Below, in pieces: positions 6,438 through 62,276 of a stretch of 64,000 bases of DNA. The notes beneath the pieces were generated by a model, which worked only from the letters and a program-made list of their open reading frames with translations, was not told the origin of the DNA and made no database searches. The position numbers and the translations under genes are program-made. Source of the stretch: an uncultured Ureaplasma sp. Lineage in GTDB: Bacteria; Bacillota_I; Bacilli_A; Mycoplasmatales; Mycoplasmoidaceae. The DNA lies in the NCBI GenBank assembly GCA_902800015.1, contig CADCCU010000003.1:1-64000 (forward strand). The letters are read 5' to 3'. How positions within the stretch are numbered: position 1 is the first letter of the stretch; the number at the start of each line of letters is the position of its first letter.

Positions 6438-6728
6438 TTATCTTTTATTAACTGATTCTTTGAAGTCTTTTCCAGCACGTAATTTAATTCTGTTAGATGC
6501 AGGAATAGTAATTTTCTTGCCAGTAGCTGGGTTGATACCTTTTCTAGCTTTAGCACGAACAATAACTAATTTACCTAAACCGAATAGGTTGAATTCTCCA
6601 TTTTTCTTTAATTCTTGTTTAATGTAAGAATTCATTCATTTAATAAATTTATCAGTTTCAGTTTTAGCCATTCCTGTAGCTGCAGCTACATCATTAGTTA
6701 CTTCTTTTAAAGTTTTAATTTTAGACAT
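6438..6728 (-). CDS. hup: DNA-binding protein HU
   Basis: 96 aa, starting at the ATG at 6728 after AAGGAG. One UGA-Trp in FIKWMNSYI. The DNA-binding arm is clear: FNLFGLGKLVIVRAKARKG, then INPATGKKITIPASNRIKLRAGKD. It is a nucleoid protein that bends DNA. A start at the internal Met of the 65-aa uninterrupted stretch would lose the N-terminal helices, so the longer start is correct. Confidence 0.96.
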
Positions 6729-6789
6729 TTTTTTCTCCTTTATGTGCATATTATATAACATTTTGACTATTTTTTCAATACTTTTTTAC

Positions 6790-7512
6790 TTAAAACAGTG
6801 TTTTAGGCTTGTTTATAAAAACACGTTTATGAGCAGTTTGCTTATGTAATTTTTCAATTCTATTTTTTGCTGTTTTGCTTATTGGTTTACCTACTAAATA
6901 ATTATCGATTTCAACATAGCTAACTTTTAATTCTTTTTCATCAGTTTGGCCTTTATATAAACCTGCTGTTGGAATTCGATCAATAATTGATTGAGGAACT
7001 TTTAAATATTTACTAATTTCATATACATTACTTTTAGTTAACGAAGCAATAGGTGCAAGGTCTCCTGATACATCTCCAAATTTTGTAAAATATCCTACAT
7101 AAATTTCATCCGCATTGGATGTGCCAACAACTAAAAGATTTTTCTCTTGTGCAATGCCATATAAGCAAATTGAACGCAATCTAACTTTTAAATTATTTAG
7201 TGAAAGTTTATTTTTAACGTTTATCAAAAATTTAATTTTTTGTAAACTTTGTAATAAGTCAATTCGATTAATTTTTATATTGAATGACTTTTCCAAATCT
7301 TTTAAATATTTTAATTCCTCTTTATTTTGTTGAAAATAAAAATAATAAGGATATATCTTTATATTTTTAATTTGTTTGCATAATGCTAAACAGCATGCAG
7401 AATCTATACCACCAGAGACGCCAATAACAACACCGTCTTTTTTAGCATTTGTAATTTCTTTACTAATTCAATTTGTTAAATTGTCAATTTGTTTTTTTAT
7501 TTTATTATTCAT
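6790..7512 (-). CDS. nadE: NH3-dependent NAD+ synthetase
   Basis: 240 aa, typical for the ammonia-dependent form. ATP-pyrophosphatase loop VIGVSGGIDSACCLAL near residue 30, then VVGTSNADEIYVGYFTKFGD and DLAPIASLTKSNVYEISKYL. It amidates nicotinate adenine dinucleotide in the last step of NAD synthesis. The ATG at 7512 is one base past the obgE stop on this strand, so it is probably co-transcribed with obgE. Confidence 0.95.
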
Positions 7513-53923: not shown

Positions 53924-54496
53924 TTAATAATCTTTTTTTAGACGTTTGTAGTATGCTTGAGGATGTTTACATACTGGGCATACTTTTGGAGCGACTTTGC
54001 CAACGTATACATATCCACAATTCATACAGATTCATTTTTCGTTACTTGCTGATTTAAATGTGGTGCCCTTCTTTAATGAATTTGCAAGACTTACATAACG
54101 ATCATAGTGCTCTTTTTCAATTGCGCCAACCGCACTAAACAAATAAGCAATTTCATTATATCCTTCTTGTTTAGCAACTTTAGCCATTTCTTTATACATA
54201 TGAGTTGTTTCCTCATATTCACCTTTGGCTGCTTCATTTAAGTTTTCTAATGTGCCAGGAATTTGATTATTCTTTTGTAGAAGTTTAAATCAAATCTTTG
54301 CATGTTCTTTTTCATTAGTTGAACTCTCAGCAAAATAATTTGCGATTTGAACAAATCCATCCTTCTTTGCTTTTGAAGAATAGTATTGATATTTAACACA
54401 TGCCTGACTTTCACCTTGGAAAGCTTTTAATAAGCTTTTGTAAGTCTTAGAATCTTTAAAGTTTTTAGTCTTTTTATCTACGACTTTTTTTAGCAT
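53924..54496 (-). CDS. rbr: Rubrerythrin
   Basis: 190 aa, with two UGA-Trp codons. The N-terminal ferritin-like four-helix domain carries diiron glutamates in LLKAFQGESQACVKYQYYSS, AESSTNEKEHAKI, NEAAKGEYEETTHMYKEMAK and VGAIEKEHYDRY. The C-terminal rubredoxin-like iron site is WICMNCGYVY with CPVCKHP. It reduces hydrogen peroxide, typical of anaerobes. The ATG at 54496 lies inside the end of a lysine-rich ORF in another frame. The first 12 residues are not part of the usual family start. Confidence 0.92.
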
Positions 54497-54650
54497 GTTT
54501 CTTTACAGATTTTTTTGCAACTTTTTTTGCAGGTTTTCTTGTAGTTTTCTTAACTGCTTTTTTTGTTGATTTTTTTGCAACTTTTTTTGCAGGTTTTTTT
54601 GTCATTTTTTTTGTTGGTTTTTTTCCAATTTTTTTTGTAACTTTTTTCAT
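54474..54650 (-). CDS. Lysine-rich histone H1-like small protein
   Basis: 58 aa, nearly half Lys, with repeats of the form KPAKKVAKKS (twice) and TKK/VKK units, like the C-terminal tail of histone H1 or the chlamydial Hc1 proteins. The DNA itself repeats a unit built on GCAAAAAAAGTTGC. It overlaps the rubrerythrin start by 23 bases in another frame and shares an A7 run there. It could be a nucleoid protein or, after a frame change, a basic leader of rubrerythrin. The low complexity lowers confidence. Confidence 0.6.
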   Translation of the reverse strand: MKKVTKKIGKKPTKKMTKKPAKKVAKKSTKKAVKKTTRKPAKKVAKKSVKKHAKKSRR

Positions 54651-57110: not shown

Positions 57111-57185
57111 GGCCACATAGCTCAGCGGTAGAGCAACCGGCTGTTAACCGGTTGGTCGTAAGTTCGATCCTTACTGTGGCCGCCA
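57111..57185 (+). tRNA. tRNA-Asn (GTT)
   Basis: 75 bases including CCA. Acceptor GGCCACA, D-arm GCTC/GAGC, anticodon loop CTGTTAA (GTT), T-arm GTAAG TTCGATC CTTAC. Confidence 0.96.
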
Positions 57186-57190
57186 TATAA

Positions 57191-57267
57191 GGCCTGTTGG
57201 TGAAGTGACTTAACACATACGCCTTTCACGCGTACATTCATGGGTTTGAATCCCGTACAGGTCACCA
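57191..57267 (+). tRNA. tRNA-Glu (TTC)
   Basis: 77 bases including CCA. Acceptor GGCCTGT pairs with ACAGGTC (one G-T pair), anticodon stem TACGC/GCGTA closes loop CTTTCAC (TTC), T-arm ATGGG TTTGAAT CCCGT. Five bases after tRNA-Asn. Confidence 0.94.
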
Positions 57268-57273
57268 TACATT

Positions 57274-57349
57274 GGAGCGCTAGCTCAGCTGGGAGAGCAT
57301 CTGCCTTACAAGCAGGAGGTCAGGGGTTCGAGCCCCTTGCGCTCCACCA
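57274..57349 (+). tRNA. tRNA-Val (TAC)
   Basis: 76 bases including CCA. Acceptor GGAGCGC, D-arm GCTC/GAGC, anticodon loop CTTACAA (TAC), T-arm AGGGG TTCGAGC CCCTT. Last of three tRNAs, followed by a terminator. Confidence 0.96.
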
Positions 57350-57354
57350 TACAT

Positions 57355-57387
57355 AAAGGTTGATACGAAAGTGTCAACTTTTTATTT
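57355..57387 (+). terminator. Terminator of the Asn-Glu-Val tRNA operon
   Basis: AAAGGTTGATAC, GAAA loop, GTGTCAACTTT, then T run. Stem holds one G-T or mismatch; clear factor-independent terminator. Confidence 0.85.
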
Positions 57388-57401: not shown

Positions 57402-57421
57402 AAATAAAAAAGTATGGCAAA
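57402..57421. repeat. 20-bp direct repeat, left copy of the restriction island
   Basis: An exact 20-base match to 60894-60913, containing AAAGTATGGCAAA. Here it is not followed by the complementary arm that makes the rpsD terminator at the other copy. The two copies bound the nuclease/methyltransferase genes. Confidence 0.65.
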
Positions 57422-57907
57422 ACAATATATAAAATTGTAAAAACCATGAATCAATGTGTAATATAATTTCATAGAAAAAGGAAACCAAAATTGATAATAA
57501 TTATTATTAAAAATACTCTCATAAGTTGTAGTAGAAATATGAATTAAATGAAACAAGCAATTAAAAATGATATTCAAATATTTTTATAGCTATAAAAAGC
57601 AATGAAAAGATTAAATCGATAAAATTAAAGAGAGCAAAAATAAAAACTTTGAAAATTAAAATTCAAATAATAAAGATACTTTATCTTTAGGTATCTAATT
57701 TATATTAGATTAAATGGTTTAAGACTAATAAAGGAGTAATTATTAATATTTGTAAATTCTCTATTCAAAAGAGATAGGTAAGAATTCATCACTAATTATG
57801 ATGAATAGCGGTTATAAAGTTAGAACTAATTTATCTATTGATAATTTGTGACAGCAAAAGTTGTGTAAACAAGTGATTAAGGAAGGAAAGAGGTAAGTTG
57901 CAAGAGA
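57422..57907. other. 486-base region without a gene, several small hairpins
   Basis: No coding frame longer than about 30 codons is convincing on either strand. Between 57670 and 57830 several short perfect hairpins follow each other: AGATAC/GTATCT, TCTAAT/ATTAGA, CTCT/AGAG and ATTCATCA/TGATGAAT. It could be a structured RNA or decayed DNA at the island edge. RNase P RNA, tmRNA and SRP RNA signatures were looked for and not seen. Confidence 0.5.
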
Positions 57908-58696
57908 CTATTTGTTATTCACACTTTTAAATATCTCTTCTATTTCATCTCAAGATTTATTTTCAAAACCTTTAATTGAATGCACAAATCTATGACAATT
58001 AGGACATAAGCCTTTTAAATCTTTGTGAATATCTGTTTCACGTTCTCCACATGCTAAATGATGAATGTCAATGATGTGGCTTGTACCATCAGCTTTTAAA
58101 TAAGACTTACCACATAATTTACAACTAAATCCATAATATTCTAAATATGCGTCTTTTATTTTCTGTGATCTGTTGTGAATTAATATTGTGTGTTGAATCA
58201 ATTCACCTTCATTTACTTTATGATTTGATATTACTTCATCGCTATAATCTGTAATTTCCTGATCAAGCAAACTTACCTGATTTGTAAAATTTTTGATTAA
58301 ATTTCATTGAATATTTGGATTATTACATTTATCTAATATTTGACCACCTTTAGCTGCTCAACGCTGTCGACCATTTTTACCATTAGTAAATTGTGTTACT
58401 ATATCCAAGCATTTAAAAGCATTTTTTATGTAGTAACCATGAAATGATGGCATATAGTCAGAATTACATACAAATTTATATTTTAAATGTGAGACACCGC
58501 TATCAATCGTAAAAATATAAATAACATCGTCTGCATTTAATTTAGTTGCAAAATTATATATTCCATTTTCGTTTTCTAATCATTGTAGATCAGTTTCAAC
58601 ATTGTTTCTGTTATATTTAGATATCGAAATATATCCTTGTCGAATTCATTCTTCAGGTTTATCATTTTCGTTGTTAATTTTTATTCAAATATACAT
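57908..58696 (-). CDS. HNH endonuclease with possible EVE-like N-terminus
   Basis: 262 aa with several UGA-Trp codons. The C-terminal HNH/zinc region reads CKLCGKSYLKADGTSHIIDI, then HHLACGERETDIHKDLKG and LCPNCHRFVHS, with two CxxC pairs and the catalytic HH and N/H positions. The N-terminal 100 residues (MYIWIKINNEN, then DDVIYIFTIDSGVSHLKYKF) resemble the EVE/PUA-like fold that reads modified bases. It lies about 47 bases after the type II endonuclease on the same strand. Role as modification-dependent nuclease is inference. Confidence 0.78.
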
Positions 58697-58743
58697 AACT
58701 ATTAAATAATGTTTAGTTGAGAAATAGAATTCAGGAATATAAT

Positions 58744-59532
58744 TTAATTAAAAAAGCTTTGAATTTTACCTACAAGATCACTGAATTTAATAGTTTTATC
58801 AAAATTTTCAAGATTATTTAATATTGTAAATCCTCCGCCCAATTTTGCGTCTTGATAAAATAATTCAACATCAAATTCTCTAGTAATATTTTTTCTTAAT
58901 CTACCGTTTGGAGTTTTTTTAGTATATTCTTTCTTATCGCCTAAGTCATAAGTAACCATCCCATATTTAATTTTTATGATTTTATTATTATCACTTCATA
59001 ACTTGCATTTAAATAATTCTGATGAGGCGTTATACTTTATTTTCATCACATCTCTATCAAGTAAAAACAATACAGATTCAGATTGGCCAACTCTTTCCCT
59101 GGTTGAGCACTTTACTGATAATGCATAAAATTTTGTTTCATCTTCATTTGATAAAAGAATATCAACATCAATTTTTTTTCTTAGATTTGTATTTTGGGCT
59201 GTATATATAGAAAAATATTGTTGAATTAAATCGTTTCTACTAGATATGGAAATCTTACTATCTAAATTATTTTCTTCCAAGAATTTTTGCAAACCATATG
59301 CTAAAATTTCTTCAGCTATTGTACCTCTATGTTTATCCATTGCTGATTTTTTTGCTTTTTCACTACCGTAATGTTTATCTTTAATAATATCGTTGATGAT
59401 GTATTCATCAAGAATTTTCAAATCAATGTAATCGTTTAAATTATTGAACACATTATTGACTTTTTTGTCTTTAATTAGATCTAGTAATTTGTCTTCAATA
59501 AATTTTTTATGCTTCAAGTCAAAATTTAGCAT
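58744..59532 (-). CDS. Type II restriction endonuclease (PD-(D/E)XK-like)
   Basis: 262 aa, with UGA-Trp at KLWSDNN. The likely catalytic core is KKIDVDILLS, then FYALSVKCSTRERVGQSE, where the Asp and the Lys of SVK would bind metal. The S-x-K form with a following R-x-R resembles the CCGG-cutting group (Cfr10I, Bse634I, BsaWI); that specificity is only a guess. The start overlaps the stop of the methyltransferase gene by 7 bases (ATGCTAA), the classic layout of a restriction-modification pair. Confidence 0.82.
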
Positions 59533-60338
59533 TTTTTACCTCTCTTAAAAATCGAACTGCCTAAGACGATACCATCTTTAACTCTTCGTTTAGCAAAGTT
59601 ACAGTATTTTTTTGATATGTCGATATATATAAAATTACGTTCTATTTTGCTGCATGCTAAAGCAACAGTTCCAGTTCCGCCGAACATGTCTAAGACAGTG
59701 TCATGTTTATAAGTATAGAATTTTAATATTCTATAAGCTAAGTCAAATGGAAATGGCGCTGGATGAATTTTTGATAATAAAGTTTCAGCTTTAATATTTC
59801 AAAAGCCATCTGAAAATGTTATAAATTCATCTTTGGTTATATCAATATTTTCTTTTTTGCCTTTATGCTTATAATTATTTTTATCTTTTTGAAAAACCAA
59901 TATAAATTCATACGGTTGTATGACATAAGGTGAAGATGGCGACATTCATGAACCTCAAGCTGTACGTTTGGACATAGCTTGTTTATACCAAACAATATCA
60001 GATCTCATAACGTAGTTTAATTTTCTACATTGGTTAATGATATCGACATATAAAGGTTGATAATATCCTTCATATGTGATACTTGGCACATTAATAATTA
60101 ATCTACCATCTGGTTTTAAAACTTTTCTAGCTAATTTTCATGCATCATTCAAAAAATCTAAGTATTGTTTGTATTTTTTGTTATCATCAGATGAATCATA
60201 TTTTTTACCAACATTATAAGGTGGAGATGTAAAAATACAATCTATAGAATTAGGTCGAATGTTTAACATTGCATTATGAAAGTCATCACATACAAAACTG
60301 TTAGGTTTTATTCATTTATTTTTTTTATCGTATGGCAT
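59526..60338 (-). CDS. Type II DNA methyltransferase, beta class
   Basis: 270 aa with several UGA-Trp codons. Catalytic motif IV, DCIFTSPPYNVGKKYD, comes near the N-terminus, and the SAM-binding motif I, DTVLDMFGGTGTVALACSK, near the C-terminus; this order defines the beta class. The SPPY form is common in N4-cytosine enzymes, though N6-adenine is possible. Between them lies the recognition region. It protects host DNA from the endonuclease encoded next. Confidence 0.92.
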
Positions 60339-60518
60339 AAATATTATGTTATGAGTAATCTTTATAATATATTACTATAAATATTGACTTAATTTTATAA
60401 AATCACGGTCATATTTATATATCATAAGCAATTATTTTATTTACTATCAAAATAGCTAAAATTTTTGAAAAAATTTTAATCTTATTAATTTTATTGCTTT
60501 AGCATTAGTTGGCAATAA

Positions 60519-60776
60519 AAATTTTTAATTTTTTGTTGTAAAATCACAAACGTATATGAATCCAATAATAATTCAGCTCATGGGTATGTTTCAGCATTTA
60601 GATGAGCTTACAATAACTTTTATGGAATGGAATTTAACATTGAGTATATTGTTAGCAGACCTAATGAGATTTCTAAGTTTACTACTAGATTAACTAATAA
60701 AGAAATTAGTTATGTCAGAAAGAAATATAAAGAATGAATTAATGAAGATTTAACTAATTTGATTAGAACCATGTAA
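60519..60776 (+). pseudogene. Open remnant without start codon, unknown family
   Basis: A plus-strand frame open for 85 codons after a TAA at 60516-60518, with UGA as Trp, ends at TAA 60774-60776. It includes NSAHGYVSAFRWAYNNFYGM and FTTRLTNKEISYVRKKYKEW, which look like real protein. The only ATG in frame is internal (near 60639). It is probably the 3' end of a broken gene at the right edge of the island. Confidence 0.5.
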
Positions 60777-60893
60777 ATTTATTATTCAAGAAAAATCTAT
60801 AAATTTGCATATTAATAAACAAATTTGTTTTAGAACTAGAATCATTAACTTCACTAATAAAACTATTTCTAAAATAATTTTTGTATTAGTTTT
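60777..60893. other. Short AT-rich gap before the rpsD terminator
   Basis: No gene or strong hairpin is seen. The gap 60339-60518 on the other side of the remnant likewise holds only AT-rich sequence and probably the methyltransferase promoter. Confidence 0.5.
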
Positions 60894-60913
60894 AAATAAA
60901 AAAGTATGGCAAA
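60894..60913. repeat. 20-bp direct repeat, right copy, in the rpsD terminator
   Basis: Identical to 57402-57421. Its GTATGGCAA is one arm of the terminator hairpin, so this copy looks like the original and the left copy like a duplicate. Confidence 0.65.
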
Positions 60914-60929
60914 CCTTGCCATACTTTAT
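60899..60929. terminator. Terminator of rpsD
   Basis: AAAGTATGGCAA, 3-base loop, TTGCCATACTTT. On the minus strand it is followed by TTTTTTA, as expected for ending rpsD. Confidence 0.9.
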
Positions 60930-60948: not shown

Positions 60949-61539
60949 TCATTCAACTACGTAAGTTTCGTTAATGTCTGGGTTTAGTTCTTGTCTTTCT
61001 GGGAATCTTACATATTTACCTGAGAAACTTGCAGTATCAACATTAACAAATTTTAATGTTTGATTTTCCATATTAGCTTTTACAATAGGTAAATTTCTTG
61101 ATTTTTCCTTAATTGTAATGGTATCACCAACATTGATAATTACTGAAGGGATATCACATTTCTTACCATTAACTAAAACATGTCCATGGTTAACTAATTG
61201 ACGTGCAGCTCTTCTTGTTGGAGCAAAATTCATTCGGTAAACTAAGTTATCTAAACGTGATTCTAGAACAATTAATAAGTTTAATGATGTAGAACCTTGC
61301 ATTTGCTTAGCAATTCTGAAAATTCTTTGGAATTGACGATTATTTAGTCCGTACATGTAGGCTAATTTTTGTTTTTCAACCTGTTGTTGGCCATAACCTG
61401 ATAATTTTTTATTAGCCATTCCGTGCTGGCCTGGTGCATATTCTCTTTTCTTACCTTTTAAGAATTCTTTATTGTTTTCTAAGATAGAAAAGTGTAGACG
61501 ACGTGATTTACGATTAATACTTCCTGTATATCTTGACAT
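60949..61539 (-). CDS. rpsD: Ribosomal protein S4
   Basis: 196 aa. MSRYTGSINRKSRRLHFSIL at the start, REYAPGQHGMANKKLSGYG, and the S4 RNA-binding domain LESRLDNLVYRMNFAPTRRA with RQLVNHGHVLVNGKKCDIPS. It initiates 30S assembly and represses its own synthesis in many bacteria. It stands alone with a long leader. AAGGAAAT precedes the ATG. Confidence 0.97.
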   Translation of the reverse strand: MSRYTGSINRKSRRLHFSILENNKEFLKGKKREYAPGQHGMANKKLSGYGQQQVEKQKLAYMYGLNNRQFQRIFRIAKQMQGSTSLNLLIVLESRLDNLVYRMNFAPTRRAARQLVNHGHVLVNGKKCDIPSVIINVGDTITIKEKSRNLPIVKANMENQTLKFVNVDTASFSGKYVRFPERQELNPDINETYVVE

Positions 61540-61786: not shown

Positions 61787-62107
61787 TTAATTTTTTGATT
61801 TTAATATACCGATCCTATTCAAATGTCTAGTTACATTTTGAAAAAAATCTTCAGTTCATTCTATATTACTAAAATTTGAATTATCGCTCAAAGTTCTTAA
61901 AATATAATTGTATTCTTCTTGTGTTAAAACTTTTCTATTTGGTACAAATTTTTTATTTTTAAGATTAAAGTATATCTGTTCATTTTCAAATTCTTTATCT
62001 TTATTTAGTGATAATAAAAAACCATTATCACCTGATATAAGAGTAATGTTGCAAAAAAAGTTGGTTTTTTCACTATTTAGTAGCATAGAAATCTTGTTTC
62101 AAAACAT
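61787..62107 (-). CDS. Hypothetical protein, possibly the second half of a frameshifted gene
   Basis: 106 aa from the ATG at 62107, one UGA-Trp near each end. Contents such as NITLISGDNGFLLSLNKDKE and LTQEEYNYILRTL look like a small soluble domain. It overlaps the upstream 67-aa membrane ORF by 35 bases in another frame. No family recognised. It may be the extracellular part of the same ancestral protein. Confidence 0.5.
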
Positions 62108-62276
62108 ACTTCTTTTTAACAAATAAATTTGAGTTCAAAAATCAATTAGTCTTGTTGTGACTAATAGTGTTAAATATCAAAGTTGCTAACCCAACTAAAG
62201 ATATTCATAGCAACCCATAAAGTATGATTGCTAATACCACTATTAGAATTGATTTTTTCACTCGACTTTTATCCAT
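62073..62276 (-). CDS. Small membrane-anchored ORF, possibly the first half of a frameshifted gene
   Basis: 67 aa: a basic start (MDKSRVKKS), a long hydrophobic stretch (ILIVVLAIILYGLLWISLVG, with Trp as UGA) and a Lys/Asn-rich end. It looks like an N-terminal anchor or signal peptide lacking its mature domain, which the following overlapping ORF could supply. No ribosome binding site is obvious apart from GAGGACAT. Confidence 0.5.

Follow-up and report, generated by a model that had tools for sequence, protein, structure and literature searches.

There is strong evidence, within the limits of MAGs, that the restriction genes beside rpsD in this window, the whole stretch of 64,000 nucleotides analysed here, lie in a 3.5-kb block that was inserted into the terminator shared by a tRNA-Val cluster and rpsD, with duplication of 20 bp of the left terminator arm. 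According to our preferred reading, to which we assign a probability of about 0.55, the block (57422-60893) is a decayed integrative element from a family found in rumen Mycoplasmataceae, and its own recombinase would have integrated it at a secondary site.

The source genome (G000; 568 kb in 14 contigs, 94% complete as an assembly) reads TGA as Trp, and the window is its contig 3. Comparison of rpsD placed this genome next to Mycoplasmataceae/Ureaplasma MAGs which, in several cases, carry isolate names of the rumen type: RUG206 (G017), which is the closest, RUG12784 (G007), RUG13716 (G015), SUG1262 (G010), UBA3729 (G040) and Tb.RUG.208 (G041). The comparison genomes are MAGs throughout and some flanks in G007 and G015 are cut off by contig ends. 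The block and its flanks comprise the following features:

57111-57349, plus strand: cluster of tRNA-Asn, tRNA-Glu and tRNA-Val, left flank (ARAGORN; Rfam tRNA; 96% identity to G017)
57355-57382, plus strand: terminator hairpin of the tRNA cluster (-13.4 kcal/mol, z -4.9; conserved in G017)
57402-57421, plus strand: left copy of the direct repeat (exact match; ancestral left arm whose partner arm is gone)
57425-57560, plus strand: scar of an IS 5′ region, truncated on both sides (match to G007:C51 with a score of 50.5; the highest of 500 shuffles reached 32.5)
57642-57897, plus strand: 3′ part of element gene A, decayed and with a broken frame (85-88% nucleotide identity to the G040 and G007 copies)
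57908-58696, minus strand: HNH endonuclease, 262 aa, weakly McrA/TagI-like (PADLOC mREase_IV, E=5.5e-4; PDB 6ghc, E=0.0015)
58744-59532, minus strand: type II restriction endonuclease, 262 aa, weakly BsaWI-like (Pfam RE_BsaWI, E=0.0011, below the gathering cut-off)
59526-60338, minus strand: DNA methyltransferase of the N4/N6 class, 270 aa (Pfam N6_N4_Mtase, E=5e-46; PADLOC MTase_II, E=4e-66)
60358-60420, no strand assigned: region upstream of the restriction-modification (R-M) operon (89% identity to G040 c2, one G040 copy only)
60449-60571, plus strand: conserved region before and into the integrase start (93% identity to G040 c2 and c6)
60564-60771, plus strand: broken tyrosine-recombinase gene, N-terminal part only (88-91% nucleotide identity to the G040 copies over 60564-60755)
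60772-60893, no strand assigned: about 120 bp of A+T-rich DNA between the integrase remnant and the right repeat (no significant match to an integrase continuation or to the G015 flank)
60894-60913, plus strand: right copy of the direct repeat (exact match; the rpsD terminator hairpin has its 5′ arm here)
60901-60927, plus strand: terminator hairpin common to the convergent tRNA cluster and rpsD (-14.9 kcal/mol, z -6.5)
60949-61539, minus strand: rpsD, ribosomal protein S4, right flank (open frame; relatives found)

The initial annotation had described an exact 20-base repeat, AAATAAAAAAGTATGGCAAA, with its left copy behind a tRNA-Val terminator and its right copy forming one arm of the rpsD terminator hairpin. 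All of this was borne out: the left copy closely follows the hairpin of the tRNA cluster, the 5′ arm lies within the right copy, and a search of the whole genome returned exact copies at the two block edges and nowhere else. Four further sites come within three mismatches, two of them with 2 and two with 3, and by inspection their sequence is unrelated; at the same tolerance 100 dinucleotide shuffles of the window gave a mean of 0.23 matches per shuffle. Comparison of the two edges with each other yielded a score of 20, the shuffle maximum being 15. Only one other dispersed exact repeat of at least 20 bases occurs in the window, and it is almost pure A/T. A longer version of the repeat, of 39 bp, was rejected, as the additional 19 bp were at chance level. 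The folding of the left copy by itself is likewise at chance level.

A tRNA-Val-rpsD junction with a single 20-mer, named in the initial annotation as a check on the proposed insertion, is present in G017. Here, on contig C31, the tRNA-Asn/Glu/Val cluster, its terminator, a single hairpin AAAAAAAGTATGGTAATTTTTGCCATACTTTTT and rpsD are contiguous and the restriction genes are absent, which points to an insertion that turned one 20-mer into two. The left copy is the ancestral one, because its left flank aligns with G017 (score 66; none of 300 shuffles as good), and the right copy runs on into the second hairpin arm and rpsD, as in G017. Relatives lacking the restriction genes were also checked for both repeat copies, which would have spoken against an insertion; the hairpin at rpsD is single-copy in G017 and G015. 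Nor does the 20-mer occur in many copies across the genome, the other result that the initial annotation had named as refuting its view. In G007, tRNA-Val adjoins rpsD with a different terminator that lacks the 20-mer, and the insert is absent. The approximately 190 bases upstream of the G015 hairpin contain no island piece and show, by inspection, an IS-like end. That the 3.5 kb entered as a unit at the rpsD terminator is thus upheld by these three genomes as far as the insertion is concerned; the idea of a bare restriction island is not, as the block contains remnants of an integrase element.

The same junctions bear on two other explanations. An ancestral island could have been precisely deleted in the relatives, the 20-mer pair being the footprint of deletion, and deletion between 20-bp repeats does leave one copy, as in G017. 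However, the G007 junction lacks island and 20-mer alike, no island piece is left beside the G015 hairpin, and the family is mobile, with G040 copies at several places; we regard this explanation as hardly credible. Alternatively, the island could have been acquired, already in place beside rpsD, from a relative by homologous recombination in which the 20-mer was one crossover point. Transfer by recombination had been named as possible in the initial annotation, and the hairpin arm together with rpsD would provide homology on the right side. It is nevertheless very unlikely, given that the endonuclease is found in no other examined genome of the genus and that the right inner flank matches neither G015 nor G017 at a significant level.

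Between the repeats, three intact minus-strand genes for methyltransferase, endonuclease and HNH protein form an operon; their enclosure by the repeat, too, had been noted before, and all three frames are open when TGA is read as Trp. The methyltransferase and endonuclease frames overlap by 7 nt. These two adjacent open genes, the former with strong and the latter with weak similarity to known families, are consistent with a predicted type II R-M system. By eye only, the stretch IDVD...SVKCSTRER of the endonuclease looks like an active site of the PD-D/ExK type. A structure model of this protein from the single sequence was discarded as too poor (mean pLDDT 38). Searches of 35 further genomes from the genus, of GTDB genome contigs and of PLSDB plasmids gave no relatives of the endonuclease. 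Viral contigs searched for the integrase and the methyltransferase gave no matches; the best phage relatives of the methyltransferase, among the matches listed, have about 41% identity. The HNH protein shows a weak likeness to type IV enzymes. In G040 a relative with a broken frame stands alone between tRNA-Glu(CTC) and rpoC (L111:4252-5302), and in G007 another, also alone, follows a lipoprotein gene (L112, reverse complement 6455-7075); the HNH gene may therefore spread independently of the R-M pair.

The operon is flanked by remnants of a mobile element. At the left, the IS scar starts 4 bases inside the repeat and stops short of the IS terminal repeat. It is followed by the remains of gene A, which has a length of about 107 codons in relatives. 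A non-coding RNA at 57642-57897 was considered and rejected, since there is no Rfam match and the sequence is the decayed gene. A third trace of the left module, the gene A region, is located at G000:C7:622-744 (L155) near the genes for ribosomal proteins L11/L1. The IS found in G040 c2 is matched by a larger copy at 314-1086 of the window (74% over 835 bp) and by a short remnant just past rpsD at 62046-62130 (87% over 86 bp).

At the right side, the statement that no integrase is visible proved wrong: a broken tyrosine recombinase occupies 60449-60771. At the protein level the remnant matches at E=9e-41, and the match contains stops. Missing are about 142 bp internally (at 60564-60571) and everything beyond approximately codon 120, the catalytic residues included; the intact relative is a Pfam Phage_integrase (PF00589), and in an alignment of four intact relatives with one G040 copy the invariant columns are R146, H231, R234 and Y266. 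A hint from the multiple alignment that 60772-60893 might be the rest of the integrase was rejected, as the match was no better than shuffles. A search for the Phage_integrase domain in the rest of the window's own 94%-complete assembly was negative, whereas all control genomes gave matches. The suggestion that the island might excise is therefore unsupported and, as far as its sequence tells, the window copy is no longer able to move by its own enzyme. Decay of the integrase, together with a genetic code that conceals its reading frame, can thus make a defence island look integrase-free by eye.

The remnants belong to an element with three copies in G040 and two in G007. These keep the same order, with gene A at the left, a variable R-M operon in one slot on the opposite strand and the tyrosine-recombinase gene at the right. 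The ends of the family are 84-93% identical and the cargo is unrelated between copies. In the case of G040, the left modules of 844-989 bp and the right modules of about 1.18 kb are 88-92% identical, and the middle 3 kb are unrelated. The cargo consists of a Tsp45I-like endonuclease with a methyltransferase in G040 c3, an EcoRI-type methyltransferase in G040 c6, an Eco57I-like methyltransferase in G040 c2, an EcoRI-type methyltransferase with a GmrSD/HNH protein and AbiH in G007 C45, and a C5 methyltransferase with HNH_2 and HATPase in G007 C21. As the homology ends on the left at the end of gene A and on the right upstream of the integrase (window 60426-60450), the R-M operon sits in a fixed slot, and we infer that the cargo was swapped as one unit. 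A broader proposal is that this family of small site-specific elements serves as a carrier of defence cassettes. A single integrase scaffold would then spread many unrelated R-M systems through wholesale exchange of everything from the end of gene A to the integrase promoter, and hairpin terminators could also serve as secondary sites; this is possible, and we put it forward tentatively.

The most complete element measures about 7.9 kb and has its integrase at the tRNA-distal end. An upstream tRNA in the same orientation is present in the four copies with context, namely the window, G040 c3, G040 c6 and G041:C17. Integrase relatives in another genome (G020; L085, L086) are accompanied by a probable cytosine methyltransferase and a coupling protein of the TraG/TraD type, and beside them lies a possible relaxase that has an HTNTDNTHIH stretch but received no Pfam call. 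This context suggests that the element may have larger mobilizable or conjugative kin.

For the attachment site, G040 c6 is the most informative copy. It is located directly behind tRNA-Trp(CCA), and the last 21 bases of this tRNA plus TAA recur 7.9 kb further on with 21 of 24 positions identical (0 of 200 shuffles as good). In the window's own genome the same right end stands behind tRNA-Trp(CCA), with a 39-base arm in which 1 base differs and an att-like core; this arm is found in no other genome of the genus. The locus (G000:C6:9964-13320, L157) comprises a lipoprotein gene, a C-terminal piece of the integrase, a small repeated gene family and the att-like end. In G041, too, an integrase remnant lies behind tRNA-Trp(CCA). 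These three cases make tRNA-Trp(CCA) the best-supported target of the family, and the window copy thus stands at a different, probably secondary, site. At the ends of G040 c3 and G041:C17 no convincing direct repeats were found. The tRNA-Trp att core is absent from the window; the block is edged by the different 20-mer, which by inspection has only TATGGCA in common with it. No att arm is recognisable in the window copy because the IS scar on the left and the 120 bases on the right damage the inner edges.

Since the window and C6 carry non-overlapping parts of the integrase, a relocation within the genome is a serious rival. Here, IS-linked or illegitimate recombination would have brought the left half of the element at tRNA-Trp(CCA) to rpsD. 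The integrase is represented by its N-terminal part in the window and by its C-terminal remnant, with the right part and att-like end, in C6, without overlap, and the IS scar lies at the left edge of the island. On the other hand, about 360 bp of the integrase are found in neither place, two independent insertions would be equally easy with three copies present in G040, the IS scar falls short of its terminal repeat, and a duplication of 20 bp is longer than usual for an IS. On balance we consider such a relocation unlikely.

A further rival dispenses with the integrase: a fragment with R-M genes may have been inserted with a long target duplication, as in Helicobacter pylori. It has to be taken seriously, because the 20-mer shares so little with the tRNA-Trp core and the edges are damaged. 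The fragment is truncated at both ends relative to the family, the 20-mer is not the family att site, and R-M genes with long, variable duplications are reported for Helicobacter pylori (cited in PMC3031569 and PMC1643837). The R-M genes of the window are enclosed by a direct repeat of which G017 has one copy, and the integrase remnant lies inside the block. Against this explanation, the fragment retains the start of the element's own integrase and the end of gene A, and the upstream tRNA in the same orientation, as seen in three other copies, would be due to chance. We therefore hold it to be somewhat unlikely.

Integration by the element's own recombinase remains our preferred reading. The origin from an element is supported by the gene A and integrase remnants that flank the cargo and are 84-93% identical to the G040 and G007 copies; the 20-mer, being unlike the tRNA-Trp att of the family, and the damage to both inner edges count against integration by the own recombinase. 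The recombinase would have joined the circular element and the chromosome through one crossover (Campbell-type), using in place of its normal target, the 3′ end of tRNA-Trp(CCA), a secondary site in the tRNA-Val/rpsD terminator. Later deletions would have removed the left end, where the IS scar is left, part of the recombinase and all to its right. That the methyltransferase, endonuclease and HNH genes are still open suggests selection for defence or an addictive effect of the R-M system.

Among known systems, tRNA-linked integrative or mobilizable islands are closest in having a terminal tyrosine recombinase, an att site at a tRNA 3′ end (in the sister copies), defence cargo and repeats at the edges. 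The family differs in its size of about 7.9 kb, the tRNA-distal integrase and the one fixed R-M slot, and the window copy in its location within a terminator and its reduction to 3.5 kb. The window copy shares with these islands an empty site in a relative and a tyrosine-family integrase gene, here as a remnant. As it has neither an intact integrase nor the family att, we file it as a decayed derivative of a tRNA-linked element. MICE are likewise integrating mobile elements of mycoplasmas; they have 22-37 kb, a DDE transposase (CDS22), random integration and inverted-repeat flanks (PMC7466169, PMC9465063). The block is not a MICE: it showed none of these traits, and TraE, TraG and the DDE transposase CDS22 are not among the genes between the repeats. 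The R-M insertion in Helicobacter pylori is similar in its restriction block, in direct repeats longer than those of IS and in the single copy in the empty strain, whereas the window block carries remnants of an integrase element. The vpma and hsd loci of Mycoplasma agalactiae also have a recombinase gene in the cluster, and vpma locus I is near a tRNA gene and has abi genes. However, their recombinases are linked to rearrangement within the locus and not to the transfer of type II R-M cargo.

The turnover of R-M systems in bacterial genomes is rapid, yet known mobile elements carry few of them, which Oliveira and colleagues described as an open question; they also noted that Mycoplasma genomes are dense in such systems (PMC4176335). 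At least six related copies of the small carrier described in this analysis hold different R-M operons in the same slot. The carrier offers one route by which defence genes could travel between very small genomes, and its break points are sharp enough for testing the exchange of cargo.

Two minor observations concern unusual proteins. Upstream in the window, at 54474-54650, a 58-aa lysine/alanine-rich histone-like repeat protein with a 12-bp unit is encoded; it overlaps the start of a rubrerythrin-like gene on the minus strand. In a large mobile element near an integrase relative (G019:C71, L087), about 12 consecutive genes end in similar short basic tails containing Met, such as KPQSGMQRK, KKTMGMK and KKTLRMK. 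This could be a shared tag or an effect of the ribosome-binding site.
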